Source: Ilex aquifolium
Lineage: Eukaryota > Streptophyta > Magnoliopsida > Aquifoliales > Aquifoliaceae
DNA length: 64,000 bases
NCBI GenBank assembly: GCA_951799425.1
Contig: OX637402.1
Location: 8,336,001-8,400,000, forward strand
Direction of reading: 5' to 3'
Part shown: positions 17,482 to 63,487 of the stretch, in pieces
How positions within the stretch are numbered: the stretch's first letter is position 1
Layout of the letters: the number at the start of each line of letters is the position of its first letter
Notes under the pieces: generated by a model
Databases searched by the model: none
Told to the model about the DNA's origin: nothing
The model's input: only the letters and a program-made list of their open reading frames with translations
Translations under genes and position numbers: made by a program

Positions 17482-17614
17482 TCTACTAGTAAGTTCTTGT
17501 AATGGCAGAGGTAGAAGATTTCCAGTGGCTTTTTCTACCGGTAGGTCTTGAGTCTTCTACCAGTAGGTCTTGAATGACTTCTACCGGTAGATTTTAAATA
17601 ACTTCTACCGGTAG
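17482..17614. repeat. Palindrome array CTACCGGTAG in the G 3' LTR
   Basis: Perfect sites at 17535, 17581 and 17605; one-change site at 17557 (CTACCAGTAG); a weaker one at 17482 (CTACTAGTAA). Spacings are 22-24 bp. Confidence 0.9.
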
Positions 17615-17854
17615 ATGTTGTCCTGTCTTGGAATTTTCTTGGTTCTTTGTGGTCCCGAGCCATTTTTCAAGTAGTCCCTTCTTCCCCCTTGACCTTGAGC
17701 ACTTGATGGGGTGCTTTTTGCATGCCCATTACCTACAATCAAACAACTCTTCGTTAATTATCAATTTGAAACCATTTTCCCACATTTCGACCACAAAAAC
17801 AAGTTAAAATAGGTGCAATAGAGATGCATATTATGCACTATTCTAGACTCATCA

Positions 17855-17890
17855 TACCCCCCAACTTGAGTTTTACTAGTCCCTAGCAAA
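17855..17890 (-). other. PPT and adjoining hairpin of G
   Basis: On the minus strand AAGTTGGGGGGTA directly precedes the LTR start TGATGAGTC. Upstream lies an inverted repeat (17872-17890; 7-bp arms with one mismatch, loop GGGAC) that recurs before the PPTs of A and E. Confidence 0.85.
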
Positions 17891-18175
17891 CCTTATTTTC
17901 AACTATACTACATATACAACAATTCCATTCATGTTAAACAATTCACAGATCAACAAGATAATCAAATCACAATGCAATTATGTAAATGAACTTGGGGCAA
18001 AATGAAATAAAAAGCATGGTTCTTTCATTCATAAATGTATGAGATTCAGTACAAAGAACTTAAGACAAAACGGCATGTGATCCTAGGGATTCTTCTATTT
18101 GGCCGACTACAACTACACCATTGTCCTTCACTATATACAACAAACAAAAACAACAGAAACAAGCTTGGACTCTCC
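17891..18175 (-). other. 3' untranslated stretch of G
   Basis: About 285 bp between ORF1 and the PPT. AT-rich, homologous to the same interval of A and E. No ORF or repeat seen. Confidence 0.6.
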
Positions 18176-19465
18176 CTAATCCTCCTCCTCTTCCTCAGAC
18201 TCAGCATCCTCGTCCTCATCGTCAAACTCATCATCCTCCTCCTCAAACTCACCCACCTCTACAACAGTCGAGCTAGTGGGGGCAGTCGCCTGGAGGCCAT
18301 CACTAGTCCCCGGAACTGATGATGGGAACTCTGGTGCGGTAGGCGGTGGTGGCACCTCGGAGAGAGGCTCTCCTGGGAACATCCTCTCAAAGATCTTGGT
18401 GACCATCAACTTCAATAGATGTATAGTCCCCCTGAGGTCATGCATCCTCCCCTCGATAGCATCAAGGCATTGAGAGACTATCCGAGGCAGGGCAACAGTG
18501 GATGGCCCGGCTATAGACGATCCAATTGTAGGTGACTCAGCCCTAGATGGCCTAACCCTTTCTTCTCTCTATGTGGACCTTCCTATCATTGTCATCCTCT
18601 TCATGCTGCTCTGCATGCCCATGGGGCCGAACTCTGGTGGAACTGTCACATTAGTGGGGATCCCCTTAAACTTGTTGTGGCGGCAAATCTTGGCGATGAG
18701 GTGGGTGTAAGGAAGGTTTGCCTTCGGCTTCGAAGCCTGGGCATAGTCCTTTATCACCTCCCAGATCACGAAAGCAATGTCCATATGGGTGTCGGTCAAT
18801 AAAGCATAAAGGAGGGCCAGTTTCTCCTCCCCCGGTGTCTTCTCCGCACCCCGAGGTAAAAGTTTGTAATGGAGAATTTTATTCATTACCCCATAGAAAT
18901 GCTTGAGTGCCCCAACTTGAATTTTTCCATTAAACTGTGTCGGGTCCTCATACATGAGACTCGCATACTCCTTGAGTGATTTCCGCCCAGGGGTGTTGTA
19001 AGGATAAACAGGGGTGTTGGCAATAGACCTTTAATAATGTAATGCCTCAGCAATAACTACTGGGGTGACCTCAATCACCTTCCCCCTCACATTTGTCTTC
19101 AACAAAAACAAATCCTCATCCACCACCCCTAACTTATGATAAAAATCCCAACAAATGGGAAACACATACCCCTCCACTGGCTAGAACCAAAAGTCAATGA
19201 CATAGCCCTCGATCACTTGGACCACGTCATTGAGTGGCCTGAGGGTGGGCTTGTCAACTTGCCGCTCGCACGTCACATTCTTGGTCTTAATGCTCTTCGT
19301 GCGAGGGTCATTCTTCCTATGGGAGGTGGTGAGCCAAGGCCCGTTTGCTTAGTACGGGCCATCACAATAAAAAATGCCCCTAGGGTAACAAATGGCAACA
19401 ACCATCCCCAAAATAAATAAAAAAATCCCGAAAGACGAAGGTGGAGTCTTACCTAGTCGAGCCAT
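18176..19465 (-). pseudogene. Element G ORF1 (Athila-type)
   Basis: Minus strand. The first ATG downstream of the upstream array is at 19465 and is followed by a short hydrophobic segment (FGIFLFILGMVV), as in A. A frameshift near 19355 moves into the frame starting MARTKQ at 19362. Recognisable ORF1 blocks follow: YEDPTQFNG, NKILHYKLLPRGAEKTP, KANLPYTHL, a Lys/Arg stretch, MFPGEPL, and a long Glu/Asp tail ending at 18176. Stops occur near 18566 and 18446. The block at about 18960-19130 is poorly preserved. Confidence 0.82.
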
Positions 19466-19709
19466 TGTTTCCAAAATTCCAAGCCTTGAGTGGATTTGAT
19501 GATGATTTAGGGAGGAAGGAGGGTTTTTGGGGGAGTAGAGGTCAAGGAAATGAAGAAGAATCACAGCGAACCACAAACTTTGAGGAAGAGACTTGATGAA
19601 TTGGGAAGATGCTTAGGGATTCTTTGACTATTTGGGAGGTTTTGAGAGAGCAGAGAGTGTTTTTTAGAGGGAGATGTATGAGGGAGATGAAGAGTTTCAC
19701 CGAAAATTT

Positions 19710-19722
19710 GGGTTTAAAACCC
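19710..19722 (-). promoter_or_regulatory. TATA-like palindrome upstream of G ORF1
   Basis: GGGTTTTAAACCC (minus strand), 29 bp from the degenerate palindrome array. The equivalents are GGGTTTTAAGT in E, GGGCTTTTAAGT in A and GGCTATAAAAGCC in F. I infer an internal promoter. Confidence 0.45.
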
Positions 19723-19750
19723 TCGTTTTTTGGGATTCTGGGCAAAACTT

Positions 19751-19814
19751 ATTGGTAGATCATCAGTCTTCTACGGTAGAAAACCCTTATGGAAAACTTT
19801 TACTGGTAGATTTC
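19751..19814. repeat. Degenerate CTACCGGTAG array upstream of G ORF1
   Basis: Three decayed sites: ATTGGTAGAT (19751), CTACGGTAG (19771, one base short) and TTACTGGTAG (about 19800). The type matches the array in the G LTR. Confidence 0.6.
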
Positions 19815-19991
19815 AACTTTTTTACAAAAATTCCCTATGTTCTCATCCTCACTCCCACTCCAAGTTTAGTCGATTACAAAGCATTCTAATGACCTATTTC
19901 CTCACTCAACTACCCAAAAACATGATCCATGCTAGTGAATCACGATGTATGACTATGCCCAAATTGATTTACGAAATTGCAAAGCGATTAA

Positions 19992-21133: not shown

Positions 21134-21512
21134 TGTAAACCCCCACATTCGTATCGTTATATAGTAATATAACTATGTTTTGAAATACTAATATATGTGA
21201 TGATGTATGCATGAACTATGTAGATTGTAAGAGTAGAAATAAAAATGTTAGCCGAGGTAATAGGGTATGTATTGGAAGCTAGGAAGTATTCCGGAGTGAA
21301 AGCACACTTTAGAGAAAATTTGGGTAGAAGAATTTTAGACACTACCTTAGTGTTTGGATCATACCTTTTTATCCCCATGTCCATTTGATCTGAAATTTTG
21401 ACAATAGATAGTAGACTTCCAGGGCTACAAAAGTGTATTTCACGAAAAATTTCCAAATCAATCTCTAAATAGGCCAAAACTTCATTGGGAGTTACAGCAA
21501 AAACAGGAATTC

Positions 21513-21642
21513 TGTTCGAATGTGAATCGACGTTCGAACGTGAATAAACGTTTGAACGTAAGTGCGTTCCAGTACTCTTGTCTGATGGAAAAAAAAAAGT
21601 ACTGGAAGCAACGACTGTTCGAACGCCAATGATGTTCGAACG
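21513..21642. repeat. CGTTCGAACG array (5 sites, four decayed) in D 5' LTR
   Basis: Starts at about 21513, 21531 (perfect), 21549, 21616 and 21633. The others read TGTTCGAATG, CGTTTGAACG, TGTTCGAACG and TGTTCGAACG. The last site ends 54 bp before the TATA box. Confidence 0.88.
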
Positions 21643-21695
21643 TGAGTTACGAATCTGGGTTTCAGAAATCGCGCACAAGAGACCATTTCTCACCC

Positions 21696-21703
21696 TATAA
21701 ATA
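21696..21703 (+). promoter_or_regulatory. TATA box of D 5' LTR
   Basis: TATAAATA, 54 bp from the end of the last palindrome. The same distance holds in the 3' LTR and in the 46247 solo LTR. Confidence 0.8.
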
Positions 21704-22684
21704 CATAAGGACGCCTCTCTTTGCATCATTTCAACATTTCTAACCCTAGGAAGACTTAGAGAGGAGGAAAGAAGGGGAAAACACAAGAATCAAGGGAGGA
21801 TTTACACATTGAAGAGGATCAAAACTTCAAGTTTTTCAAGAACACTACGGAAGAAGAATGTAGGCGTTTTCTTCCATTCTATTGCATTGAGGCTAGGGCA
21901 TACATATATATACATTCTTTTGACTCTAAGTCTTATATACTTGCTATGAAATTTTTGATTCTTGATATTTATGCAAATGTGGTCATGTTTTTAAACAATG
22001 CTATGGTGGAATCACCATTAAAACTCTTTTCTTGGTCTAAAACCCTAGTTCTCAAGGAAAATGGGTTTTTCTCTTGATTTTTCCTTGATTCTTGAATTCA
22101 AAAACTTTAGTGCTTGAAATTGAACCACAAAATGATATTTATGAGGATCTCTTGTATATTTTCTCACATTATCTCTATTGTGCTACTTTATGAGAAATTT
22201 GGGGATTTTTTGGAATGACTTGATGTTTTTGAGAAATTGTGGATATTGTAATTCTTGTATGATTGTTTTGATGAACATGAGTGAGAGGTTTCTTGTAAGG
22301 ATGCTTGAGAAACCAAATCTTGAGGGTGAGAGGTTCCTTGTAAGGATGCTCATGCCAAAGAAACAAGACCTTGAGGGTGAGAGGTTCCTTGTAAGGATGA
22401 TCATGCCAAATAGAACAATATTATATCATGTTTGGGTTATTGGTTTACTTTTGGGAAATTGTATGGCTCCATGTTGGTAATTGGTTTCACCTCTCCATTT
22501 AACTTTATTGTTGTTCGTAAACTAGAGATCTATTAAAATGTCACGTTTTTCCTTCAAAAGTTATATATATGATATTTGTGAAACGAGACCGACTTGTTTT
22601 ATATGTTTCTAAACCTTGTTTGAGTTTGGAAGGATTTTCCTACAGAGCTTAGTGCTCACCCCCTACAAACAATATCCCTTTTCA

Positions 22685-27740: not shown

Positions 27741-28119
27741 TGTAAACCCCCACATTCGTATCGTTATATAGTAATATAATTATGTTTTGAAATACTAATA
27801 TATGTGATGATGTATGCATGAACTATGTAGATTGTAAGAGTAGAAATAAAAATGTTAGGCGAGGTAATAGGGTATGTATTGGAAGCTAGGAAGTATTCCG
27901 GAGTGAAAGCACACTTTAGAGAAAATTTGGGTAGAAGAATTTTAGACACTTCCTTAGTGTTTGGATCATAACTTTTTATCCTCATGTCCATTTGATCTTA
28001 ACTTTTTACAGTAGATAGTATACTTCCAGGGCTACAAAAGTGTATTTCACGAAAAATTTCCAAATCAATCTCTAAATAGGCCAAAACTTCACTGGAAGTT
28101 ACAGAAAAAACAGGAATTC

Positions 28120-28249
28120 CGTTCGAACGTGAATCGGCGTTCGAACGTGAATAAACGTTCGAACGTAAGTCCGTTCCAGTACTCTTGTCTGATAGAAAAA
28201 CAAAAGTACTGGGAGCAACGACCGTTCGAACGCCAATGACGTTCGAACG
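28120..28249. repeat. CGTTCGAACG array (5 perfect sites) in D 3' LTR
   Basis: Starts 28120, 28138, 28156, 28223 and 28240. Spacings are 18, 18, 67 and 17 bp. Confidence 0.95.
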
Positions 28250-28302
28250 TGAGTTACGAATCTGGGTTTCAGAAATCGCGCACAAGAGACCATTTCTCAT
28301 CC

Positions 28303-30122: not shown

Positions 30123-31771
30123 TGATTGAGCAAAAACGGTGTTATTCCTAACCCCTTAAATACTATCCCTTAGAAGCCAAAGTGTATGAACGAAAGGGAG
30201 TGTCACTCTCCCTTGGGATAGTGTCAAAAGAAAAGGGCAAGGGGAAAGGAAATAGGTTGGTGGAAATGTGATATGTGAATGCACAAAAATGCTCCCCAAT
30301 CGCAAGGAGACTTTCGTGGGTCGTATTTTACTTGGTGGTATTCCAAGGTCGTTTCCACGGGGAAGGAAGTAAACCAATTTTAAAGTGATTTTGGGAAAAG
30401 AAAGTGTAAAAATTCTTGTGGTGGAAAGTTGTTTGGTGAAATGTGTTTTGGTGAAAATGAAATGAGAAAGCAAGTGTTGGCAATTCCAAGAGGTCACTCC
30501 AATGGGTATACCATCTCAACTCAAATCACTCCTCCGATTGAGCATGAATGAACGATTGATTCATGGAAAGCCGAGGATGATGTCGGTGAGTATCTAAGCA
30601 TAAACCGTGACTAGGCCTACGGATTATCAAAGACTCACCGAATCATCCACCTTCAATCCAGTCAAACCGAACCACTGGACTCTAAAGGGAGGGAGGAGAA
30701 GGAGTTGAAATGGTATACCCAAAGGGAGATTCCCCTTGGTCTTGCCAACTAAAGGATTTAGCTACTCATACTTGAAATGAAAGTGACAATGTAAAGAGAG
30801 TGCATTGCAAAAATATGAAGTTCTAGAGTCACTAAATGCAATAAAACACAAGCTAAAAGTGAAGGCATTTCAATCCCACTTTTTTACAGCTAAGACAATG
30901 AAAGACTTGAAGCATTAATGGTAGAAACTTTAGAAGAGCATTAAACTAGCCAAGAACATGAAGGTAAATAGCATTAATGACATTCAATGAAATTCTAAAA
31001 GTTCATACCATTGATTACAAGACAATGCAGTAGAAGAAATGCAAAAATCACAACTTTCTCTCTCTAAAACTACTATTTATCTTCTTCTACGCCTGGAGCT
31101 TCTCTCTCTATATCCCTATATTCATATCTATTCCATCCCATAGAATGCTGAACATTGGAGAGCTTGGCCTCCCCACAAACGTGCCTGGAGTGGTCCTGTA
31201 GCTCCCTGAAGTGACCCCCATCAGTAGGGTGCAGCAGGGATGGCCTGGACAGGGGAGTGCAGAGCTTGTCTGCACACCCAGCTCCTTCTCTCTTCTCTCT
31301 CTTCATTCATCACCCAAGCCTCCAACATCCAATCAAAAGTGTAAAAGTGGTGAATAGTATTGTGGGCGTGTCAAGGAGAGCTGATGGTGGGACCCTCAGA
31401 GTAGCAGATCTTGAAATGCAGAGATTCGGGGCAGACTCAGCAGACAGTACCGGTACTTTGAACACCAGTAGCTTCGGCGTACCGATACTGCGTACCGGTA
31501 TGGTACAGTACCGATACTGCATACCAGTACGGTTTCTCTGTTTCTTTCTGATTTTTTTCAACTTCTGAGCTTTACTTTAACCTTTCCTTCGCCCCCAAAC
31601 ATCCCAATGCATTTGGGAAGGCCTTAAGAAGCCTTATTTAGGGCCTTGCAACTGCAAACAGCAAAAGCATCGTTAATACTTCAACTAACACAATTCGCAT
31701 CATTTAAACTGCAAAAGCAAATGAAGTGAGATGATTAGCACACAAGAATATACACTATTTTGTGCTAATCA
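30123..31771 (-). mobile_element. Solo LTR S5 (Athila-type), TSD ATGTG
   Basis: A 1649-bp LTR with plus-strand ends TGATTGAGC and GTGCTAATCA, flanked by ATGTG at 30118-30122 and 31772-31776. Those five bases are the last three of A's own TSD plus the first two of A, so S5 inserted after A. No coding interior. Related to, but clearly diverged from, the LTRs of A. Confidence 0.92.
31447..31530. repeat. GTACCGGTAC array (5 sites) in S5
   Basis: Starts 31447 (perfect), 31479 and 31492 (13-bp pair), 31508 and 31521 (13-bp pair). The last four each have one or two changes. Confidence 0.85.
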
Positions 31772-31774: not shown

Positions 31775-33439
31775 TGCTTGGTGTTTTTCCTTGTTATCCC
31801 TAACCCCTAAATATCCTCCCTAAAAATGTAATGTATAGGGATGGATGGGAGTGTCACACTCCCATTGAGTAGTGTCAAAAGAAAGGGCAAGGAGATGGGA
31901 AAATGGAATGGTGGAAATGTGTTGTGTATGAACAAAAATGCTCCCCAAGCGCAAGGAGACTTTTGTGGATCGTGTTTTACTTGGAAGTATTCCAAGGTCA
32001 TTTCCACGGGGAAGAATGTAAACCAATAGAAAGTGATTTTGGGTAAAAGAAAGTGTAAAATTCTTTGTTGTTAAAAGTTGTTTGGTGAAGTGTGTTTTGG
32101 TGAAAATGAAATGAGAAACAAACGTTGGCAAACCCAAGGGGTCACTCCAATATGAATACCATCTCAACTCAAATCCTTCCTCCAATAGAGCATGAATGAA
32201 CGATTGATTCATGAGAAGCTAGGGATAAGATGGGTCACTATCTAAGCATAAACCGTGACTAGGCCTACGGAATATCAAAGACTCACCAACTTATCCACCC
32301 TCAACCCAGTCAAACCGAACCATTGAACTCTGAAAGAAGGGAGGAGAGAGAGTTGAAATGGTATACCCAAGTGGAGGTTCCCCTTGGTTTGCCAACTAAG
32401 GGATTTTAGCTACTCATGCTTGAAATGAAATTAACAACGTAATGAGAGTGCATTGCAAGGGAATGAAGTTCTTGAGTAACTAAATGCACACAAACATAAG
32501 CTATAAATGAAAGCAATGAATACCCATTTTATAAGTAAGAAAATGAAGAAATTTGATGCATTAATGGTAAAAGCTTTGAAAGATAATTAAACTTGCAATC
32601 AACTTCTAGGAACTAGCATTAATAACATTAAATGAAGCTTTAAAGGTTCTTACAGGAGATTACAAGACAATGTAATGAAGAAAATGTGAAAATCTCAATT
32701 TTATCTCTCTAGAACACTATTCATCATCTTCTCCCAGACTCTCTCTCTATATATGTATATATCTCTCTAACTCCTCCTGAATATCCAATCCTGAAGTCTC
32801 TTTCCCTCCAAAAACGTCCATGGAGTCCTCTCCCAGCTCAGTGATGTGATCCCCATCCATAGGTTGTCAAGAGGGACAAGCTGGACAGGGTGGTGCAGAG
32901 CTAGCCTACACACCCAGCTTCCTTCTTCTTCTTTTTCTTCACTTAACATTCTAGCTCCCAAAGTCAAATGGAGGGTGCTGAGAGGTTGTACAATGTGATG
33001 GAGGAGTCAGAGATATATGGGAGAATGATTGATGGGTCCCTAAAAAACGGTGGACTTGAGTTGTAGAGAATGGGGAAGGAACAACAGACCGTACCGGTAC
33101 GCAATACCGGTACCTCGAACTCTAGTGTCAGAACCTTACCGGTACACTTTGTTCTAGTGGCCAAACTGTATCAGTACTGCGTACCGGTACGCTTTTGCTA
33201 TCTTGACTGATTTTTCTGATTTCTTCACTCCTGAGCCATTCTTTAGCCACTCTTTCATCCTCATTCACCTCAATTCATTTGGGAAGGCTTTGAGAAGCCT
33301 CATTTAGCACCTTTGTTTCTGCAAACACCAAAATTCTCCGTTAAGAACTCTAATAATGCAACTCCAATCATTTAACCCCCAAAAGCAATTGAACATGGGA
33401 TGATTAGCACTTAAAATATGCAAAGTTTTGTGCTAATCA
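31775..33439 (-). repeat. 3' LTR of A
   Basis: 1665 bp, starting TGATTAGCAC and ending CACCAAGCA (minus strand). Highly similar to the 5' LTR, which is 27 bp longer. Hairpin at 31980-31996 and a GTACCGGTAC array. Confidence 0.95.
33091..33190. repeat. GTACCGGTAC array in A 3' LTR
   Basis: Starts 33091, 33104, 33136, 33168 and 33181. Two pairs at exactly 13 bp. The two outermost sites are perfect. Confidence 0.9.
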
Positions 33440-33487: not shown

Positions 33488-33742
33488 AGACAAGGTAATG
33501 CGCATAACATACAATAATCCATTTAAACAAACAATTCACTCAATCAATCAAAAACAAAAATCATAATGCAATTAACAAAATAACATAGACAAGATTGAAT
33601 CCGAAACTATGGTTTTCCATTAATGTGTTATAAAGATGGAGTACATGGAGTAGGACATCAAAAAGAAACCAAAAAGGCCTACAACCCCATTCTACTATAT
33701 ATAATCCAACACCAAAAGAAAAAAAACACAACTACAACAACC

Positions 33743-35052
33743 CTACTCATCACTCTCTCCATCACTCCCATCATCAGCCTCATCTTCCTCAGACCCTTTT
33801 TCCTCCCCAGACTCTTCAGTATCTTCATTGTCATCATCCTCTCACCATCATCAGCCTCAACTGCTGTGGAAGTAGAGGGGGCTGGTGCATAATGGACAAT
33901 AACTTCTGGGATGGGCCTCCCTGGGAAGGTATGCATGAAAATCTCTCTAAGCATGGCCGTCTTCCCCTGCATTGATGCTTCGAGTGCATCCAGACGCTGG
34001 GGGATTGAGCGTGCTGGTGCAGCTGTGGATGGCCCAGAGGATGAAGACGGCCTGGGAGCCTCAGCATCAGAACCCATGGTCCTGGCCCGCTCTCCCTTAC
34101 TCATTGCTTTTCTTTTCTTACTACTGGCCTTGCCAATAGCCCCGGTCTCGGGAGGAGTGAGCTTGTCAAACACGTAGCCCTTTACCTTGAAATGCGTGCA
34201 CATCCGGGTTACCAAATTCCCGTACGGTAAATTAGTCATCAGCTTCGTTGTTTCAGCAAAGTCTTTCATTACTTCCCACATGAAGAGTGCAAAGTCGACC
34301 GTTTTACCTGACACGACGGCATCCAACATGGCTAACTTCTCCATATTTGGCTTCTTCTTCGAAGCCCTAGGAAGCAGATTGTAATGAAGGAGTTTGTTCA
34401 GAAGTTCGTACACGTGCTTCAACTATCCACTTTGAAAATTTCCCTTGAATTGTGTGGGATCCTCATACATTAGAGCCACGAACTCCTCTCTAGTTTTGGC
34501 TCTAGCGACATTGTGAGGATACACAGGCGGGAAAGGTGGTGGTCTCTCGTATTCCCCAAGAAGAGAAGCAATGACATCGGGGGTCACCTCGAACTTCTTA
34601 CCCCGCACATTTGCTCTCAACACTTCCGCACCGTCCACCACAACCACCCTAAGCGTTTGGTAGAATTCTCTACACATTGAAAAATTGTACCCATCAACGG
34701 GCTTGAACCAAAATTTCATGCCATGCCTCTCAATGATCCTCACAACCTCATGCATTGGGGTCAGTGAGAAGTGATCAAGGTGCCGCTCACAAGTCACACT
34801 CTTCCCTTGAATCCACCGAAGTCGTGCCTCGTGTCTGGCCTTCTTCCTTTGCACATTTGGGTCTGTGCTCGACCCTTCACCGCTTCTCTTACGACTAGTG
34901 GGATCCTCGGGTGGAGAGGAACTAGGTCCAGGTCTTTTGGTTCCGGCCATGCAATGCAACAGTGCCCCCATTGAGAGAATCACAAAGAGAATCAAGAAAA
35001 GACCCTCAATCGGGTCTATGGCCTCAGGAACAACCTCCAAGTGACGAGCCAT
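33743..35052 (-). pseudogene. Element A ORF1 (Athila-type), the most complete copy
   Basis: Minus strand from ATG 35052, the first AUG downstream of the internal array. The N-terminal hydrophobic run LFLILFVILSMGALL is followed by a basic, Ser/Pro-rich stretch (SRKRSGEGS; QRKKARHEARL), then the ORF1 core (FEVTPDVIASLLGEYERPPP; YEDPTQFKG), one in-frame stop at 34425, NKLLHYNLLPRA, PETGAIGKASSKKRK, RSIPQRLDALE, MHTFPGRPIPE and an acidic tail entered by a frameshift near 33840. Family known from Athila elements; role uncertain. The basic motifs and acidic tail are compatible with a nuclear DNA-binding or regulatory protein, which is my inference. Confidence 0.87.
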
Positions 35053-35293: not shown

Positions 35294-35320
35294 CCTAAAT
35301 TTTTTTCGGTTCAGCAGACT

Positions 35321-35407
35321 ATACCGGTACGCAGTACCGGTATCCCGAACTCCAGAGACAAAACCGTACCGGTACGCTATGCTCCAGAAGCCAAACCGTA
35401 CCGGTAC
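35321..35407. repeat. GTACCGGTAC array upstream of A ORF1
   Basis: Starts 35321 and 35334 (13-bp pair, each one change), 35366 and 35398 (perfect). The spacers (CAGCAGAC, CCCGAACTCCAG, CCAGA.GCCAAAC) match the LTR array spacers, so the two arrays are copies of one segment. Confidence 0.92.
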
Positions 35408-37285
35408 GCTTCTGCTTTGTTTGCCATTTTAATCCTACTAAGCACACCTCTCCACTCCACTCCAACTCAGGACCTCCCTAGACATTTTACCACACTACTC
35501 ATGACCTCTACTCCATCCCAAAAATGTACTCCACTTATAAACCACAATCCGAACCATCATGCCCAAATTATTACTGAAATTGCACAGTGATTTAAAATTT
35601 TGATGCATTCAATGTACAAGGAAGGGATTTCTATTCTTAACTATAAAAATGAACATTCAAAATTAAAATCATAATATTAATAATATAGACATTCCTAATT
35701 CATTTCAAATATCAAAAACTTGAGCCATATTCCCCTACTCTGCAAGTATGGAAGTCAATAATAAACTGTTCAGATGTCTGAACTAAGCACACATGAGCAG
35801 TACCATAGTCCTAAATACTAGTCTACAATATGCACCTACACATTTATTTTCGAACTCGTGTGTGTGTGAATTGGACAAGTAATTTGAACACTTACGCAAC
35901 AGAATTCACATCCGAATGGCTAGAAAAATTCAGTTTCAATGCAAAACTCACCAAAAGTCACTCTCACAATGAAATACACTCTAGTTATCCTGGCATGCAC
36001 TCCATGTGTACATGTGAGATAGAATCTTGTGCTCAAAACAACGTATGCTCACACATAATCCAAAAATGAAGTTCATGTTATGAAAATGAAGCGACTTTGG
36101 CATAATCTCATGAAAGGAAAACTAGGGCATTGGGTGGTAGGACTAACTCATCATTTTCTTTGAAATTATGCATCTCCCATGCTTCACTAGATCACTTAAA
36201 ACTTTAAAGGTTATAATGGGGCCTTGGGGTGATATTTGAGGTAAAAGAAACGGAGGACATAGGATACAAATAGAGTTGTTCCAAGTGAAAGCCTTTTTTA
36301 TTTCAAGACACTTCCCTTTTTATGGGATTTTTCATTCCATTCTTACACCTTCACCTCACTCTTTGTTTCTTTTCTTTATTTTCCTTAACATTTCTTTTTC
36401 TTTTGATCATTCTTTCTTCTTCTCACCCCTTTCCTTCCTTTTCTTGAATTTTTCATTCTTTTTCTAATGAACTTCTTGAGTTTCACTTCCATTCATCCCT
36501 TGCTCGAATTTCCACACCACACTTCCTTTACTTTTGCAATCACTCATTTTCAGCTTTTAGGAACAACCAACGTAAGGTAGGTATTTCTCTTTATTTTTTT
36601 TTTTTTCGTCGGCTTGGTCAAATTTATGGCATAGAAATGAATTTTAATTAGGCTCAATCACGGCACTAGGGATAATATTTCACAAGAATAAGGCAAAGGC
36701 TCGAAAATATTCAAAAATGGCCTAAGATCACTTCCAGATACGCATGAGAGGGCATTGCATATACAAGACAACATTAGTCTACTACCCAAATGCGCCTAGC
36801 CAAGACAAACATAATGAGATTATTGAACAAATTTGGCATTGAAAAATTGTTCTTTGAGTAATTGTAAGTTCCCTCCAATAAGGATTGACACTAAAGCTCT
36901 CACAGGTCCTTACTCATCTCCACTACTTATGTCAAGCCTAAAACATGAATCCAATCCGTAAATTGCTGAAATTACACATTCAAAGATCACATACAGTTGA
37001 ATTCAAAAATCAATACATATGTGATACTCACGCATGGGATCAATTTCCATAGTATGCTCATGTGCACAAAGTTCACAACAAAGAACAATATATCATCTAA
37101 TCCACACACTCTTCATAAAGGAATACAGATCAACATTCATATACTTTTCATCAAAAATTTTCAAAATTTTCACATAATTTGCACTAATGTAAGCCAAAAA
37201 TCTATAAAAATGTGAAAGGTGAGTTTCCACCCCAAAAATTGGTATTATCCACAAAAATTTCCCCAAACATTGGTGTAGCATGCAC
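35408..37285 (-). other. Long noncoding stretch of A between pol and ORF1
   Basis: About 1.9 kb, AT-rich, with a pyrimidine-rich run (36290-36480) and a poly-T run at 36594-36606. Its ORF1-proximal part matches E 53880-54380. No convincing ORF. Small frames here are low-complexity or chance. Confidence 0.65.
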
Positions 37286-44007: not shown

Positions 44008-45699
44008 TGCTTGGTGTTTTTCCTTGTTATCCCTAACCCCTAAATATCCTCCCTCAAAATGTAATGTATAGGAATGGATGGGAGTGTCACATTCCCTTTG
44101 AGTAGTGTCACACTCCCTTTGAGTAGTGTCAAAAGAAAGGGCAAGGAGATGGGAAAATGGAATGGTGGAAATGTGTTATGTGTATGAAAAAAAATGCTCC
44201 CCAAGCGCAAGGAGACTTTTGTGGATCGTGTTTTACTTGGAAGTATTCCAAAGTCGTTTCCACGGGGAAGGATGTAAACCAATAGAAAGTGATTTTGGGT
44301 AAAAGAAAGTGTAAAATTCTTTGTTGTTGAAAGTTGTTTGGTGAAGTGTGTTTTGGTGAAAATGAAATGAGAAACAAATGTTGGCAAACCCAAGGGGTCA
44401 CTCCAATAGGAAAACCATCTCAACTCGAATCCTTCCTCCAATCGAGCATGAATGAACGATTGATTCATGGGAAGCTAGGGATAAGATGGGTTACTATCTA
44501 AGCATAAACCGTGACTAGGCCTACGGAATATCAAAGAATCACCAACTTATCCACCCTCAACCCAGTCAAACTGAACCATTGAACTTTGAAAGAAGGGAGG
44601 AGAGAGAGTTGAAATGGTATAGCCAAGTGGAGGTTCCCCTTGGTCTGCCAACTAAGGGATTTTAGCTACTCATGCTTGAAATGAAATTAACAACGTAATG
44701 AGAGTGCATTGCATGGGAATGAAGTTCTTGAGTAACTAAATGCACACAAACATAAGCTATAAATGAAAGCAATGAATACCCATTTTATAAGTAAGAAAAT
44801 GAAGAACTTTGATGAATTAATGGTAAAAGCTTTGAAAGAGAATTAAACTTGCAATCAACTTCTAGGAACTAGCATTAATAACATTAAATGAAGCTTTAAA
44901 AGTTCTTACAGGAGATTACAAGACAATGTAATGAAGAAAATGTGAAAATCTCAATTTTATCTCTCTAGAACACTATTTATCATCTTCTCCCAGACTCTCT
45001 CTCTCTATATATATGTATATATCTCTCTAAATCCTCCTGAATATCCAATCCTGAAGTCTCTTTCCCTCCAAAAACATCCATGGAGTCCTCTCCCAGCTCA
45101 ATGATGTGATCCCCATCCATAGGTTGTCAAGAGGGACAAGCTGGACAGGGTGGTGCAGAGCTAGCCTACACACCCAACTTCCTTCTTCTTCTCTTTCTTC
45201 ATTTAACATTCTAGCTCCCAAAGTCAAATGGAGGGTGCTGAGAGGTTGTACAATGTGATGGAGGAGTCAGAGATATGTGGGAGAATGATTGGTGGGTCCC
45301 TTAAAAACGGGGGACTTGAGTTGTAGAGAATGGGGAAGGAACAGCAGACCGTACCGGTACGCAGTACCGGTACCCCGAACTCCAGTGCCAGAACCGTACC
45401 AGTACGATTTGTTCCAGAGGCCAAACTGTATCGGTACTGCGTACCGGTACGCCTTTGCTGTCTTGACTGATTTTTCTGATTTCTTCACTCTTGAGCCATT
45501 CTTTAGCCACTCTTTCATCCTCATTCACCTCAATTCATTTGGGAAGGCTTTGAGAAGCCTCATTTAGCACCTTTGTTTCTGCAAACACCAAAATTCTCCG
45601 TTAAGAACTCTAATAATGCAACTCCAATCATTTAACCCCCAAAAGCAATTGAACATGGGTTGATTAGCACTTAAAATATGCAAAGTTTTGTGCTAATCA
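44008..45699 (-). repeat. 5' LTR of A
   Basis: 1692 bp. Compared with the 3' LTR it has a 21-bp tandem duplication near 44087-44131 (GTGTCAC..CCCTTTGAGTA). Hairpin at 44236-44253. Confidence 0.95.
45351..45450. repeat. GTACCGGTAC array in A 5' LTR
   Basis: Starts 45351, 45364, 45396, 45428 and 45441. Two 13-bp pairs. Three sites are perfect and two have one change. Confidence 0.92.
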
Positions 45700-46246: not shown

Positions 46247-46508
46247 TGTAACACCCCGCATTTTCGTTTATATATGTATATAGATATATACTAAATAATA
46301 GTTGTAAAAATGTTGATATAGTATAACTCGAGGAAATAATATTTGAAATTTAGTTTTAGTATGTGAAAATATGAAATTTTATGTCCTAGAACTTGTACTA
46401 AATAGGTTTGAGGTAGAAATATATGTTGGAGAGGTTTGGGATGGTTTTGTAAGAGATTGGAATGGATTAGAAATGAAAAATAAAGGAAGTAGGCAAATCT
46501 GGGATCAA

Positions 46509-46670
46509 CTACCGGTAGTAACTACCGGTAGTCAAGTGCCCAGTGTACTCGGACTACCGGTAGTCAACAGGTAGTCAAGTGCCCAGTGTACTCGGACTAC
46601 CGGTAGTCAACAGGTAGTCGAGTGCCCAGAATAGTCGAACTACCGGTAGTCATAGTTTAACTACCGGTAG
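46509..46670. repeat. CTACCGGTAG array (6 perfect sites) in the Tekay-type solo LTR
   Basis: Starts 46509, 46522, 46554, 46597, 46640 and 46661. Most extend to ACTACCGGTAGT. A 43-bp unit repeats between 46554 and 46640. Confidence 0.95.
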
Positions 46671-46723
46671 TCACTGTAAAAATCAGACAATTTTAGTTCG
46701 CGAACAGCCGATTTTTCCCCCAC

Positions 46724-48610: not shown

Positions 48611-50399
48611 TGCTTGATTGTTTTCCCGTTGTATTCCCTAATCTTCGGACATCATCACTCAATGTGTGTATAGCTTATAAGGATAGGGGAGTGTCACTCT
48701 CCCTCGGAATGATGCAAGAATGGGGAAACAAAATAATGGTGGGTGAATGAAAATGTGTGTGTGTGTGTAAACAAAAGTGCTCCCCAAGCGCAGGGAGACT
48801 TTCGAGTGTCGTGTTTTACTTGGAAATCGTATTCCAAGGTCGTCTCCTCAGGGAAGGAGGTGAATCGTGTTGAAGGTGATTTTGGTGAACAAAAAGAAAA
48901 GTGTAAAATCTTTTGATGTTTGAGTTTGGTTTTGGATTGTGTTTTGATGAAATTGAAATGGGAACAAGTGTTGGCTAATCCTAAGGGGTCATTCCAATGG
49001 GAATGCCAACTCAACTCGAGACCTTCCTCCAATGGTGCCTAGATGTTCGATTGATTCGTAGGAAGCGCAGGACCAAAATGGAGGTGAGGATTCAAGCATA
49101 CCCCATGACAAGTCTATGGTGTATCAAGAACTCCCAACCACGTCCACATTCAACCTAGTCAAACCGATTCATTGTACACTACGTGGATGAATGAAAATGA
49201 GTTGAAATGGCATACCCAAGAGGAGTTCTACCTTGGATTAGCCAACTTAAAGTTTAGCTACTCATATTTGAAGGAAGAACATACATGTAATAAAGAGACA
49301 TTGTAAAGAAATTAAGATTGGAATGTAGTTGAATGCAAGAAAACTTAAACTAGGACTAGCAACATTCAATACCCATTTTAAAACTTGAAAAGGAAGAACT
49401 TGAATGCATTAATGGTGAAATCCAAAATGTAAGACTAAACTTGAAATTTGCTTGTAGTAAATGACATTAAAGACAATAAATGAAGTTTACCTAAGTCTTT
49501 CAGGAACTACAAGTGAAATGGATGGAAGAACATGTAAAAATCCAAGCTTTATCTCTCTAACTATGTCTTCTCCCTAGAGCTCCTCTCTCTATAATGTACT
49601 GTATATCTCAATAATACATAATGAATCATTAAAAACGTCCATGGAGACCCCCATAGCCTATATGGCAGACCTCCCATCCATAGGAGTCTGATTGGATGCA
49701 TTGTTGCAGGCTATGACAAGCATAGCCTTCCTCTCTCTTGCCTTGCTCTTCTCTCTCCTTCTCATTAATGCTCAAGCCTTCAAACTCCAAGCTATGGTGA
49801 TAAGAGGCATGTAGGTGTGTAAGGGATGTCAGGGGACTTGTTGGAGAAGTGTAGGTGGGACCCCCAAATGGCAGAGCTTGAGTTGTAGGCTATCTGGGCA
49901 ATCTGGGCAAAACCTTCCGGAAGGTTTGTGCAGGAACAGTTAAATGAGGAAACCAGTAGGCAAAACCTTCCGGAAGGTTCATTCCAGTAGACAAAACCTT
50001 CCAGAAGGTTTTGGCAGTGAATAGGCAGACCAAGGCAAAACCTTCCGGAAGGTTCATTCCAGTAGACAAAACCTTCCAACAGGTTTTGGCAGTGAATAGG
50101 CAGACCAAGGCAAAACCTTCCGGAAGGTTTTTAGCCAAACCATCCGGAAGGTTTTCATCCAAACTGTATTTTTCTTGGTTTCATCACCCTCCAAACCTTC
50201 CTTTTAGCTACCCCCTCATCTTAATTGAATTCAAAAACTTCAATGGGGGCTTAACTCAAAACATTTACATCTTTTACCTACATTTACACAAAATTCCATC
50301 AAAGAGACGATTAAACGATTTTCTCCTCAAATTCACGACAAAAGCAAGTATAAAAGGGCATATTAGCATACAATATATGTCATATTTTTGTGCTAATCA
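48611..50399 (-). repeat. 3' LTR of E
   Basis: 1789 bp. Minus-strand TGATTAGCAC...CAATCAAGCA. It includes the conserved hairpin (48819-48838) and a CCTTCCGGAAGG array with a ~75-bp tandem duplication. Confidence 0.92.
49913..50151. repeat. CCTTCCGGAAGG array (7 sites) in E 3' LTR
   Basis: Perfect at 49913, 49966, 50041 and 50116; variants at 49997 (CCTTCCAGAAGG), 50072 (CCTTCCAACAGG) and 50140 (CCATCCGGAAGG). The units near 49963-50037 and 50038-50112 are tandem ~75-bp copies. Confidence 0.93.
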
Positions 50400-50752: not shown

Positions 50753-52627
50753 TGATGAGCACATAATATTGCATATTTGAAGGGCTCATTACATGCATTT
50801 TAACTCAACTTTTGCATTTAAGTGCTTAGAAGTTAGCCGTTTTGAACTATAATGTTGATATTTTGATGTTGCAACCTTTTATAGCTTAAGTGATTGATTT
50901 TAGGACATTGCAACCTTGATGGATGTGTGGTGAAGGCATGGACACAATACATGAAGAATTGGAGGCTAAAAAGTGAAGAAATCAAGAAGGCATTGGTGCT
51001 TGGGAACAAGGGCACCAGCTGCAGCAACAATTGGAAGCACTGCCTCTGAATTCCTCCATTTTGACCATGATCTACTCAGAATTTGGAAAATTTTAAAACA
51101 TGAAAGTTGTAGATATGGGTGTCTTCTGTTTGGTGTCAAAATTTAAGCCCAATCCAACGGTTAGATCAAGAGTTATGACGATTCTACCGAAGGTGGTCCA
51201 GTGCAGAAAAGCAGTACCGGTACTCGGTACCGGTACCAAATGGTACCGGTACCTAGTACCGGTACTCCGGACCTTCTGGTCGCGAAAACAGCCTGTAACT
51301 CAACTTTGAGGCTTGGGGGTCCCACCTACACTTCTCCCACGCCTATCCCAACATTTCCTTACACATTTGCAGGTCTCTTACACATTTTGGAAGACTTTTG
51401 AGGCTTGGCATTCAAGGAGGAAGAGAGAGAAATGGGCTGCCATGTGGGTTGCAGGCTAGCCTGTCCAAGGCTTCAACTCAGCCCCTCTTTGGTGTAAGAC
51501 CTGCACACACCTAGGGGGACCCTCCATGGACGAAATTCAAGGCTCTCACTCTCCATTATACATTCAACATTCAACACACAAGAAAAGGAGTTGGCTACCT
51601 AAGCTTAGGAGTAGAGATAGAGAGCTCCAAGGAGGAAGAAGATGAATAGTGTAATGTAATTTCGTTTTTGCACTTCTTCCATCCTTTTCCATGTAATCTA
51701 TTGTAAGACTTGTTTAAAGTTTTGTTTATTGTCTTTAATCTCATTTATTTCAAGAACTTTGCAAGTTTCAATACACCATTTTACATTTCACCATTGTTGC
51801 TCAAGTTCTTCATTTTCAAGCTTAAAATGGGTATTGAATATTTTTCTCCTTAGTTTACGATTTCTTGCTTTAAGATAAGTTTCATGCTTCATGCTTCATG
51901 TCTTCATTATATCCATTTACATTATTATGCTTGTCTTTCATTTTACCATGAGTAGTTAGATTTAAGTTGGTAAATCCAAAGGAAAATTTCTCTTGGGGAT
52001 TCTATTTCAACTCATTCTCCTCCCTCCCTTAAGAGTCCAATGGTTCGGTTTGACGGGGTTGAGAGTGGATGAATTGGTGCCTTTGATATTCCGTAGACTT
52101 GTCACGGTTTATTCTTAGATCATCACCAACCTCATCCCTTGCTTCCCCCGAATCAATTGTTCATTCATGCTCTATCGGAGTTAAGGAGGGATTGGAGTTG
52201 AAATGGTAGTCCTATTGGAGTGACTTCCTTTGGATTAGCCAACATTGTTTTCTTGCATTTTCCATACATAAACACAACCACAAAACACAAATACAAGATT
52301 TTACACTTTCTTTTCTCTTTTGCAAAATCACCTTTCACAAAACTCCCTTTCCTTCCTTGAGGAGACGACCTTGGAATACTTTCCAAGTAAAACACACGAC
52401 CACAAAAGACTCCTTTCGATTGGGGAGCATTTTTGTGCACACCGCATCTCATTCCACATATTTTGTTCATTCCACAATTCCATCCACCACCATTCCGTTG
52501 TTGCCTAATCTTTTGCATCATTCCGAGTGAGAGTGACACTCCCCCATCACTATAAGCCACATACACACATTGAGGGTGAGGGTGATGTTTAGAGGTTAGG
52601 AATAACGACGTAGTTTCCAATCAATCA
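50753..52627 (+). mobile_element. Solo LTR S4 (Athila-type), TSD ATCCT
   Basis: 1875 bp, TGATGAGCAC...CAATCAATCA, with exact ATCCT at 50748-50752 and 52628-52632. Closest to S2 and S1. It carries the conserved hairpin at 52370-52387. No coding interior. Confidence 0.94.
51214..51265. repeat. GTACCGGTAC array (two perfect 13-bp pairs) in S4
   Basis: Starts 51214, 51227, 51243 and 51256, all perfect. Spacing 13, 16, 13 bp. Confidence 0.95.
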
Positions 52628-53694
52628 ATCCTCTATCTCGGACTCCTCCTCCTCCTCGTCCACCTCGACAGTAATGGAAGGCACAGGAGCAGTGGTCGAC
52701 GGTCCAACTGGAGGCTGTGGGGGTCCACCGGGGATGGGCTCACCCGGGAATGTATGATGGAAAAGTCTCATCACCATCAATGAGAGCCCATGCATAGTGG
52801 ACTCCAGAGCATCTAGACGTTGGGGTATGGTGCGAGTCGGGGCAGGTGTAGGTGGTGGAGGTGCTAACGCAGATGGCCCGGCCACTGACGGCTCTGGCCC
52901 CCTAGCCCTAGATCTCTCCCCCCCAGTCCTGGCAACCCTCTTTTGAATGTTGGACTTCCCTATGGCTCCAGTCTCTGGGGGGAGTAGTGTATCATGGGCA
53001 TAGTACTTCACCTTAGCCAGGTCGCAGAGATGGGTGACGAGGCTGCCAAAAGGGAGATTTGCCTTTGGCTTTGCAGCCATGGCAAACTCCCGCATCTCCT
53101 CAAAAATCAAAAGTGCCACCCCATCATGAAAGCGTGGAGCAAGGCCAGCTTCTCGATGTTTGGCTTCTTCTCCGAACCCTGGGGCATCAAGTTGTAATGC
53201 AGCACCTTATTCATAACCCCGTAAGAATGCTTGAGGCCCCTGACCAATGTTGTTCCCTTGAACGTGGTCAGGTCCTCATAGGTGAGGGCCACATAGTCGC
53301 TGAGCGTCCTACCCCCATCCACATTGTGTGGATAGACTGGGGTAGTCGGGGGAGGCCTCTCGTATCCCATTACTGTAGCAATTGTGTTGGGGGTCACCTC
53401 AAAGGTCTTCCCCCGCACATTCGTCCGTAGCCTTCCCCTGTCTTCACCAAACACTGAAAACTTTTGATAAAATTCCTGACACATCCCCAAGTAGTACCCC
53501 TTCACCTCCTCCAACCACAATCACAAACCCCGTGCTTCGATTATTCTCACAACCTCATTGGTAGGTCCAAGAGAAAGTGAGAAATTTCAAGTTTGGGAGA
53601 AGTGTTTTGAAGATTGGAAGAGGTTTGAGGGAGAGGAGAGAGCTTGGGAGTTTGAGATGGATGGGAAATGTGAAGGGTTTTTCAAAAATTTCGA

Positions 53695-53707: not shown

Positions 53708-53729
53708 GTTTTTAGGTTTTTGGGCAAAA

Positions 53730-53870
53730 CCTTCCTGAAGGTTTTGTTTACTACCTGAGGCAAAAATTCCAATAGGCAAAATCTTTCGGAAGGTCGATCA
53801 AAACCTTCTAGAAAGTTTTGCTCACTGGACAGAACCTTCCGGAAGATTTATACACAAACCTTCCGGAAGG
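53730..53870. repeat. CCTTCCGGAAGG array upstream of E ORF1
   Basis: Sites at 53730 (CCTTCCTGAAGG), 53782 (TCTTTCGGAAGG), 53804 (CCTTCTAGAAAG), 53835 (last base changed) and 53859 (perfect). Spacers such as GGCAAAA and CCAGTAG/CCAATAGG resemble those of the E LTR array. Confidence 0.88.
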
Positions 53871-54379
53871 TTTTTCCTTTGCTGTAAAACCATTCCTTTG
53901 TTCAATAATTCACATCCAATCCATCTTTTCCCAACTCCAACACATCTTAATACCCTACCTAAGATATCTAACCTACCAAAAACTTGAACCACACATATGA
54001 ACCACAATTGAATGATCATGCCCAAGGTCATTTCCGAAATTACAACATGATTTAAGATTTTGATGTTTTCAAAGTATAAGACATGGATTTCTAATTTAAA
54101 CTACCAAAATGAATACCCAAAATGTAAAACATGAATTCAAATAACAAGAGCATTCCTAAATCTTATCAAATATCGAAAGTTGACCAATATTCCCTCATCC
54201 TTTAAGCATAGGGCTACCTAACACATCGTTCAACAGCCCGAACCAAGCACACATGAGCAACACCATAGCTTTAAATGTTATTCTAGAGTATGCACCTACA
54301 CATTCATTTTCAAACTTGTGTGTGCGTGCAATGGACATGTAATTTAGGCATTTACACAATGGAATTCACATTCACTTGG
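53871..54379 (-). other. Noncoding stretch of E
   Basis: About 510 bp homologous to A 35430-35940. No ORF or structured repeat seen. F interrupts it at 54385. Confidence 0.6.
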
Positions 54380-54569
54380 CTATCTGATTAGCACTTAAAA
54401 TTAGCATATTACTATGTCGTTTTAAGACTAATTGTACTTTGATGGAGTTTAAGTGATGTCATTTCAGGCCCTAAACTGAACAAGGACTCAAGAACAACAA
54501 GTACCACACTTGAAGGCAACACCAGCACATTAGAGCACAAAATTGGAAAATCATGGAGCACAGCCAGAA

Positions 54570-54915
54570 CGTTCGAACGCCAACTCACGTTCGAACGACC
54601 ACATTGAACTGTAGCAGACTCAACTGCTAAGAGAAGGTGTGTTGCAGTTAGGAAAGAAGACTGTGGAGCTCTGAGGCACTTGAGTGCCACGTTCGAACAT
54701 GCACTTGAGTTGATTGAAGACCAGACTACTGCATAGAGTTGGAACTGAACTTCACAGAAGACCAACAGATCACTCGAGTGAGAGGGTCAGAAAACATCTG
54801 GCGTTCGAATGCCCTTAGTGAAAAAACAGAAGAAACGTTCAAACGACAGTCAACGTTCGAATGACCATAAAGCAAAAACAGAAACAACGTTCGAACGTCA
54901 ACTCACGTTCGAACG
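54570..54915. repeat. CGTTCGAACG array (8 sites) in F 5' LTR
   Basis: Perfect at 54570, 54588, 54888 and 54906; variants at 54690, 54802, 54836 and 54854. Three pairs are spaced exactly 18 bp (54570/54588, 54836/54854, 54888/54906). Confidence 0.93.
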
Positions 54916-54996
54916 TTATCCACAAACTGGAAGCAGAGTGGTTGGTTTTTCACTTGGACTTGGGCGGCATACACTATTCTTTCACCTCCTCTTGCC

Positions 54997-61971: not shown

Positions 61972-62368
61972 GGCACCCACTTTTTCTACCAACCGCCGAT
62001 GTTGCCCCCCCCCCCCCCATTTCTTCTTCTTCTTCTCTTCTTCTGTTTCTGTTCTTCTTCTTCTTCATTTTCTTCTTCGTTTTCTCTGTTTTTTTTTTTT
62101 ACACAACCCATGACCACACACTCCACAAACACAATCTTTTGCTTCATGTTTTACATTTTAATCTTATATTTGCTCATGGGTATCCTTCTCTTGTTCACAC
62201 TCACACACAAGGATTTTTAACCTACCCGAAACCCAGATCTGCGCACAGACGAGTAATTTGTGTATTTTTATTTGTAGGTCTCAGCAGATGAACAAATCTC
62301 TACCATTCAACCTCATCTCCAAGATCCGTGAATTGGTCAATTCGAAACATTGGGGACAATGTTCAGTT
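61972..62368 (+). other. Post-pol stretch of F with poly-C and pyrimidine tract
   Basis: A run of 14 C bases near 62004-62018 is followed by about 85 bp of TTC-rich pyrimidine sequence to 62100. No ORF is conserved. It could act as a splice-acceptor tract, but no clear acceptor could be assigned. Confidence 0.55.
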
Positions 62369-62382
62369 TAGGTTGGGGGGTC
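62369..62382 (+). other. Central PPT-like tract of F
   Basis: TAGGTTGGGGGGTCTG, 400 bp past the pol stop and preceded by GGGGACAATG. A has a homologous tract (37286-37302). It is not followed by an LTR here, unlike the terminal PPTs. Confidence 0.65.
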
Positions 62383-62560
62383 TGAGAATACAGTTCATAT
62401 TTGCCCGTAAATTTTTAAAATTTTTTGTTGTTGTTGTTCTGATCATTTTATGTACCTTATCTTGTATAAATTGATGATTATGTTTGTGAGTCAGCTTCAA
62501 TCGTCTTTGTGACTGGCAGACGTTAAAGAACCAGATAGTGAGTCTTAAAGCTTAGAAATC

Positions 62561-62970
62561 ATGGATGTTAAAATTTTTTGGTTTAGTCTAGGAGTTCTAC
62601 ACACTTTTCCATCTGATGTGCATACTGTAATCATGAGAAAAGCAAGACTAGTAAGGAAGGCTGAAATCCAAGAAAAACAAGCAAAACCCCTCTGTGGCAG
62701 AAGTAGCTTTGCCAAACGTCGTCGTGCCAAAAGACTTGGTGCTTGTAAACAGTGTGGCAGAGTCTTTCACGAGAAAAGATACAACTAGTGTTCTGAACCA
62801 ATCTCCGATCGCGCACTCGATCGATTAGACTGGATAGTGAATGGGCTGAATAAGGATTACCTTGATACGCCATGCTATTCCGGTACTTTGCTTAACCGGT
62901 TTGTGAGAGAGAAAGTTGGGATAGTCAATGGTTGTCCGTTCTACACAGACACAGAGGGAGACTCGGATTA
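62561..62970 (+). pseudogene. Extra Cys-rich ORF of F (ORF X), one internal amber codon
   Basis: Frame from ATG 62561. The first 75 codons end MRKARLVRKAE..., SFAKRRRAKRLGACKQCGRVFH, so there is a strongly basic stretch then CxxC and His. After the TAG at 62786 the frame stays open for another ~60 codons (CSEP, LDRLDWIVNGLN, RFVREKVGIV, FYTDTEGDSD) to a TAG at 62968. Cys-Cys-His-Cys spacing is C-x2-C-x4-H-x6-C when the stop counts as a residue, like a zinc knuckle but longer. A has no counterpart in the same interval. Not a family I recognise. Confidence 0.45.
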
Positions 62971-63224
62971 GGTAATTTTCTGTAGGAAATGTGTACTTTT
63001 GTTAGGGGGTGAAAGCCAAAGGTTCGAATTTGTGTAAAAATCTTTTTGTATAAACTCTTTTTGACTAGAATGAAAATATGAGTCGAGTAAGGAATGTCCC
63101 AAAATACCAACCTGAAGCGTGGGTAGGGGCTTATCCTGAGACGCCATAAGTTTTTGATTTAAAATTGTGTGTCTGACCCTCTTTAATTGTGTATAGTGTA
63201 GCAGAGAATTTTTTTTGATTTTAA
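62971..63224 (+). other. Noncoding stretch of F before the array
   Basis: About 250 bp; no feature seen. Confidence 0.5.
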
Positions 63225-63487
63225 CGTTCGAACGCCAGCTGCTTACAGTACTCAGCCTCTGATGAAGCTTCAGATGAAACTTCAAAGTACTGGGAGCTCA
63301 GTCTGTTCGAACGCCAATAGACCGTTCGAACGAGATTAACGTTCGAACGCCAATAGAACGTTCGAACGAAGAGAACCTACAATACTTTGGCCTCTGACAA
63401 AACTCAAAAGTACTGAGAGCTCACCACGTTCAAACGATCTGTTTAAAATCCTTCTACACACGTTCGAACGTTACCAACGTTCAAATG
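63225..63487. repeat. CGTTCGAACG array (8 sites) upstream of F ORF1
   Basis: Starts 63225, 63304, 63323, 63340, 63359, 63427, 63461 and 63478. Five are perfect. Adjacent spacings cluster at 17-19 bp. The palindrome is the same as in the F 5' LTR. Confidence 0.93.

Follow-up and report, generated by a model that had tools for sequence, protein, structure and literature searches.

Matching palindrome arrays in the LTR and upstream of ORF1 of Athila-like retrotransposons in a 64-kb window of Ilex aquifolium

Clustered palindromic repeats with a sequence that differs by element have been described in 13 Sireviruses, for which an internal promoter was also suggested (Bousios et al. 2010, PMC2829016; statements on this and the other articles cited by PMC number refer to the parts of their text that were available). 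The upper half of the 3' long terminal repeat (LTR) holds most of the Sirevirus repeats; in the nine elements with ENV they also occur in the linker, where 77 of 79 copies are upstream of ENV (PMC2829016). The present analysis concerns a comparable arrangement in four Athila-like retrotransposons, A, E, G and F, of Ilex aquifolium, in which arrays of CG-centred palindromes occur in the LTR and again before ORF1, the accessory open reading frame (ORF) located downstream of pol and before the 3' LTR. The function of this 'env-like' ORF in plant Athila elements is a long-standing question. The study covers one stretch of 64,000 nucleotides (contig OX637402.1 of assembly GCA_951799425.1, positions 8,336,001 to 8,400,000; hereafter the window, with positions counted from its first letter) and four LTR/internal pairs, all of them kin.

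The likeness to the Sireviruses lies in element-specific palindromes in the U3 region of the LTR and upstream of an ORF in the ENV position (the downstream ORF of F having no Pfam match). The Sirevirus core CGG-CCG, found in 12 of 13 elements, may be compared with the CCGG of three of the four Athila classes described below; however, copies were pooled there into one consensus per element, and the available text does not take up spacing, array copying, replacement in situ at the two sites or the sharing of motifs between lineages (PMC2829016). The LTRs of maize Sireviruses have similar fast-evolving, palindrome-rich regions, but the topic there is hot spots of host small RNAs (via PMC5311732). 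Sireviruses are Ty1/copia elements, with integrase before reverse transcriptase (RT), whereas the Athila elements here are Ty3/gypsy; membership of the Sireviruses was therefore rejected for A and F, in which integrase lies downstream of RNase H (60299-61102 in F; 37717-38349 against 39684-40346, minus strand, in A).

In foamy viruses, Tas acts on both the LTR promoter and the internal promoter. The presence of these two promoters in one retroelement (PMC7828637) is a likeness of layout. Athila6A of Arabidopsis, of the same lineage by name, is likewise set beside the present elements by description and not by sequence: a promoter for the ENV-position ORF, within the element and before that ORF, is reported among the author-defined transcriptional start sites, but no palindrome array is mentioned in the available text (PMC4977677). 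In the VANC/VANDAL system (Hosaka et al. 2017, PMC5735166), non-coding regions hold clusters of short motifs that vary between related elements, and an unrelated family may carry the motif; however, VANDALs are DNA transposons, the motifs quoted are non-palindromic and binding by the VANC protein has been demonstrated, whereas the present case is known from sequence alone.

A search of the literature on Athila palindromes, ORF1, internal promoters and enhancers, with most subscription journals outside its coverage, found no such arrays reported, and Athila palindrome arrays are unmentioned in the available parts of PMC7264820, PMC11963269, PMC4977677, PMC10418216, PMC6911290, PMC3276544, PMC11728184 and PMC12844716. 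Among the matches listed in an exact-motif literature search, none concerns retrotransposons by title. The statement in the original prediction that no described system of this kind is known in Athila thus stands for the arrays and has to be tempered by the Athila6A promoter and the two-site palindromes of the Sireviruses. As far as the literature was searched, the two-site layout is already published for Sireviruses, and the Athila case, the in-place replacement at two sites, the shared spacings and the apparent exchange across lineages are novel.

One palindrome class at two sites of each element

The window is made up of nested plant LTR retrotransposons. By their sequence, elements A, E, G and F are Athila-like: their LTRs start with TGATTAG (A, E and F) or TGATGAG (G), and the pol of A is matched by pol pieces of both G and F; no pol of E was found inside the window. 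The window holds 54 CG-centred palindromes with a length of 10 bp or more, whereas 20 first-order Markov simulations gave 7.1 on average, by which a chance origin was rejected; 48 of the 54 are the decamers of four classes, one for each element.

Element A (minus strand; LTRs 31775-33439 and 44008-45699, 95% identical in the LTR pair alignment) carries GTACCGGTAC, with five sites per LTR at up to two mismatches (5' array 45339..45466, 3' array 33079..33205) and four sites at up to one mismatch, at 35321-35407, in the internal array before ORF1 (35310..35420). Six LTR sites and four internal sites (53731-53869) of class CTTCCGGAAG, at up to one mismatch, occur in element E (minus strand; 3' LTR 48661-50399 by LTR alignment), whose LTR array CCTTCCGGAAGG spans 49900..50165 and whose internal array before ORF1 spans 53715..53880. 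Element F (plus strand; LTR start 54385, the element continuing past the window end) has eight LTR and eight internal sites of CGTTCGAACG at up to two mismatches, in arrays at 54560..54925 and 63215..63495. The LTR of element G (minus strand; start at about 17854 by alignment to E), which appears to be truncated near 17461 by another insertion, has four sites of CTACCGGTAG at up to one mismatch (17475..17620). The internal array of G (19740..19825) is decayed; it retains one site, at 19800 with two mismatches, and three decayed TCTACC half-sites read by eye.

These arrays lie where the original prediction had placed them. Its claim that all four elements match within themselves was confirmed for A, E and F, the match in G consisting of the single site, the half-sites and an alignment of the two arrays (z 10.1). 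Its claim that palindromes differ between elements holds for the four classes, with classes A and G only one symmetric base pair (2 of 10 positions) apart. At two mismatches the classes are no longer distinct, since only two positions separate A from G and G from E.

In total, 17 arrays were identified: in 10 Athila LTRs (two of A, one each of E, G and F, and five more), at the four internal sites and in three chromovirus-like LTRs. The five further Athila LTR arrays and the three chromovirus-like ones were not part of the original prediction. Each array of the 10 identified Athila LTRs and the four pre-ORF1 sites has one palindrome class, the window not having been searched exhaustively for array-free Athila LTR pieces. 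At up to one mismatch, 16 of the 17 arrays are single-class, the exception being the internal array of G, whose one two-mismatch site is of the class of the G LTR. That all 48 perfect decamers fall within arrays is partly circular, as array regions were picked where motifs had already been seen; the location of the arrays in LTRs or before ORF1 is unaffected by this. Among the one-mismatch sites, 23 of 26 are C>T or G>A changes, 12 of these at CG, so that the arrays were closer to perfect at insertion time; the decay looks as that of methylated DNA.

Agreement in class between LTR and internal arrays has a chance probability of 1/24 by permutation of the four pairs, a comparison of the kind that the original prediction had proposed, and of about 0.0016 when internal classes are drawn from nine Athila LTR arrays, with A counted once; both figures are optimistic, given the kinship of the elements and the presence of copies among the arrays.

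The sequences around the arrays are homologous among A, E and G. This applies to the U3 preceding the LTR array (z 9.5 for A-G, 10.4 for E-G and 19.7 for A-E), to the stretch 5' of the internal array (z 10.5, 18.8 and 61.1) and to the leader 3' of it (z 8.7 for A-E, 10.5 for A-G and 13.4 for E-G); at these flanks F aligns weakly or not at all (z -1.2 to 6.3). Three different palindromes thus sit between homologous flanks. Similarly, 164-2003 and 4320-6137, two Athila LTRs that can be aligned over their full length at 72%, nonetheless belong to classes CCTTCCGGAAGG and GTACCGGTAC, respectively. Homologous flanks around different arrays indicate that in each element the palindrome was substituted in situ at the two sites. 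The possibility, raised with the original prediction, that the agreement is no better than overall regional similarity was rejected, since the flanks align while the arrays differ.

Spacers, spacings and chromovirus-like LTRs

Internal arrays were compared with 11 LTR arrays, using 60 shuffles, and again with the palindromes masked so that spacers only were aligned. Unmasked, the best match of the internal array is its own LTR array in A (z 34.6), E (z 29.2) and G (z 10.1). With spacers only, the internal array of A matches the 5' LTR at z 27.7 and the 3' LTR at z 16.9, so that the spacers of A match as originally described, and that of E scores z 5.1, or 8.0 on the other strand; G and F score 0.8 and 0.1, respectively. 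Judged from these alignments, copying of the array from the own LTR appears clear in A, likely in E and weak in G, and was not seen in F. Continual gene conversion, one of two explanations offered in the original prediction, accords with A and E, less with G and not with F.

The spacings between palindromes are also shared. They are 13, 32, 32 and 13 in the 5' LTR of A against 13, 32 and 32 internally; 24 and 53 in the LTR of E against 52, 53 and 24; and 18 and 34 in the LTR of F against 17-19 and 34. The spacing of 13 is found again in four other Athila LTRs of the GTACCGGTAC class, three of which also have 31 or 32.

Two chromovirus-like insertions with three LTRs share palindromes with the Athila elements. 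The LTR pair 21134-23036 and 27741-29642 carries CGTTCGAACG at 21500..21660 and at 28105..28270 (spacings 18, 18, 67 and 17), both on the plus strand; a third array at 46490..46700 (plus strand; spacings 13, 32, 43, 43 and 21) carries CTACCGGTAG and lies, by its position, in a chromovirus-like LTR, whose 46884-48367 matches 21857-23036. The element at 21134-29642 is termed chromovirus-like from its matches to RVP_2, RT, RNase H, integrase and SH3_Tf2-1, and may be a Tekay element. It is the only such element with its body in the window, and tblastn found no ORF1 relative in it. The occurrence of 13 and 32 together with the G palindrome at 46490 suggests that palindrome and spacing can travel separately.

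The internal array of F shares spacings of 17-18 and 67/68 (17-19, 34 and 68 being found in the array as a whole) with the 21134 and 27741 LTRs, and its spacers resemble theirs. For the 27741 LTR, none of 1492 background comparisons (overlapping 166-base window stretches, both strands) was as good under either scoring, and for the sister LTR at 21134 seven were as good under one scoring and none under the other, in a match first noticed among 136 compared pairs. The use of these palindromes by LTRs of a second lineage weakens the case for a factor exclusive to an individual Athila element; it suggests a host factor family, or other elements that benefit as free riders from Athila ORF1.

A proposed shared enhancer and its alternatives

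The pattern is probably best explained by an enhancer shared between two promoters and read at both by one dimeric factor, encoded by the host or by ORF1. Each Athila element would transcribe its genomic RNA from the LTR promoter and ORF1 from an internal one, and both promoters would bear the same enhancer of clustered CG-centred palindromes at set spacings. A single dimeric, sequence-specific DNA-binding factor would read both, so that ORF1 and gag-pol would be expressed together. The palindrome would turn over between elements, the two sites would change together by copying from one site to the other, exchange of arrays with other elements is indicated for F, and selection would favour the matched pair. 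Identification of the factor with a host family of related specificities is tentative and rather less than an even prospect.

The position of the internal arrays is promoter-like, since each precedes a TATA or TATA-like sequence followed by ORF1. A TATA box, CTATAAAAG (63500..63508, plus strand), is directly 3' of the internal array of F, the leaders of A, E and G have TTTTAA at corresponding positions, 23-29 bp from their start, and the F LTR has TATAAA 3' of its array, at LTR position 613. The report of an ENV ORF promoter in Athila6A slightly raised the two-promoter reading, to its present standing as probable. A common sequence-specific factor, the other explanation offered originally, fits all four pairs and this position, although the version with a factor private to each element is weakened; both of the causes originally offered thus receive support, and neither accounts for all of the observations.

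Several observations weigh against a shared enhancer. The favoured mechanism is drawn from sequence and from only four pairs, which are related; the match in A and E could be obtained by copying alone, and the internal array of G is nearly lost. The internal array of F, unmasked, best matches the chromovirus-like LTR at 27741 (z 20.2), with its own LTR second (z 7.9), and the G LTR has spacings of 22-24, unlike the array with the same palindrome at 46490. TTTTAA, as found in A, E and G, matches a TATA box only weakly, and the pyrimidine content of the leader, 61-63% in these elements, is only 52% in F. ORF1 could alternatively be expressed through splicing, as acceptors have been predicted in env-like genes of Athila (a prediction cited in PMC2829016).

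The ORF1 protein itself could be the factor, acting as a transactivator or anti-silencer on its own promoter and the LTR, with palindrome and protein co-evolving as in VANC/VANDAL and other elements as free riders; we consider this possible but unlikely. The location of the second array at ORF1 favours it. ORF1 of A (33679..34950, minus strand; two open pieces split by one in-frame stop) matches PF20167, a family related to Athila ORF1 (PMC11728184), in two pieces under Pfam's own cut-off; two relatives found through another ORF1 piece of the window (11912-12739), P0001 and P0002, match above the cut-off and served to detect by tblastn the ORF1 remnants of E (52748..53577) and G (18362..19315), both on the minus strand. 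P0001 and P0002 are arranged as a basic-rich start, PF20167 and an acidic tail, with 13 and 12 lysine plus arginine against 9 and 8 aspartate plus glutamate in the 50 N-terminal residues, and tails with 17 acidic and no basic residues in 46 (P0001) or 12 and 2 in 37 (P0002). Also in favour are a predicted nuclear signal in a sunflower Athila ORF of partial similarity to PF20167 (PMC11728184) and the VANC6 motifs of an unrelated family, some copies of which are de-repressed by VANC6 (PMC5735166). ORF1 is more divergent than pol between A and G, with 149/349 identities against 395/537 (185/263, 112/155 and 98/119 in three pol pieces, by the best single-frame row), which fits fast co-evolution and equally well weak constraint.

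On the other hand, accessory ORFs may simply be weakly constrained, ORF1 of G being decayed with stops, and no DNA-binding fold emerged from a comparison with solved structures, which found no relative (one match, E 0.79), or from an AlphaFold model that is unusable at a mean predicted local distance difference test (pLDDT) score of 38. The accessory ORF of F runs past the window end, and its 149 residues inside the window match no Pfam family. Moreover, the chromovirus-like element at 21134-29642 has arrays without an ORF1 relative. The fuller version, in which dimeric, sequence-specific ORF1 proteins would each be tuned to their own palindrome at two sites and change along with it, arrays would move between LTR, ORF1 promoter and other lineages, and chromovirus-like elements would exploit the Athila factor, is unlikelier still.

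Passive copying, by which template switching or gene conversion would shift array pieces between sites and elements without need of any factor, and a match would mean a recent common origin, is improbable as the whole explanation. It is favoured by the spacers-only match in A, by the partly retained order and spacings in E and by the spacers common to the internal array of F and the chromovirus-like LTR; but F has the same palindrome at both sites with spacers that are not homologous, and copying leaves unexplained why 17 arrays lie in LTR U3 or before ORF1, each with one CG-centred class. Pairing of self-complementary palindromes in RNA or single strands, which would need a match just for arrays, or copies within one, to pair, accounts for free sequence choice and within-element matching and for the greater stability of 12 of 12 folded stretches than of their shuffles (z -4.05 to -8.80), but is the least probable reading, as palindromes give such stability by construction and the same palindromes in another lineage are not predicted. 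When only the spacers were shuffled, with palindromes and 4-bp flanks held, the 12 arrays that have any free spacer gave a mean z of -1.2, and 5 of 13 arrays (one of them lacking free spacer) were below -2, which weighs clearly neither for nor against pairing; a narrower hold gave a mean z of -2.7 (9 of 13 below -2), with palindrome edges shuffled too.

If the ORF1 promoter and the LTR do have a private DNA code in common, the ORF probably encodes a regulator and not an envelope; should a host factor read it, the code would represent a control route in plants on which two retrotransposon lineages draw. In both cases, the arrays provide a simple sequence test for co-activated elements.

Further arrays and minor observations

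The five additional Athila LTRs are 164-2003 (array 1430..1510, minus strand, CCTTCCGGAAGG class) and, with arrays of the GTACCGGTAC class, 4320-6137 (4755..4860, plus), the solo LTR 7959-9584 flanked by GTTAT on either side (9260..9345, minus), 30121-31771 (31430..31545, minus) and 50753-52602 (51195..51290, plus). The LTR 30121-31771 adjoins element A, with GCATG at both outer sides of the pair and ATG between them, an arrangement (30121-45699) that suggests a nested insertion at a target duplication or a tandem-LTR recombinant. Acceptor-like TTTGCAG, TGTAG or TTTCAG, read by eye, occur in the U3 of A, E, F and G at LTR positions of about 80-125, and may be due to chance.

On the sense strand of 15 arrays, the spacer motif CTGGA reaches 4.4 per kb, whereas the window as a whole has 0.64 per kb per strand; it could represent a second motif or the decayed remains of old sites. 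As a shared spacer motif it was set aside, since several arrays are homologous and an unbiased screen of 5-7-mers missed it.

A search with the F RT in a viral collection gave no further elements, and of three stretches matched by P0002 in that collection none was confirmed; a plasmid collection likewise gave none. A genome contig search gave a single locus (L001, 8-598), in a contig of an archaeal bin, that encodes an RT 37% identical to that of F and is possibly eukaryotic contamination.

A 1.19-kb unit is repeated three times head to tail at 13168-16792, with about 92% identity, and lies within what may be an insertion with its start near 17461; a similar start occurs at 7858. In the chromovirus-like LTR, 47289-47752 consists of 4.6 copies of a 102-bp tandem repeat with nine TCCTTATAAGGA palindromes; CCTTATAAGG has the shape of a CArG box, and a CCTTGTAAGG variant is found in the related LTRs at 22281-22418 and 28887-29024.

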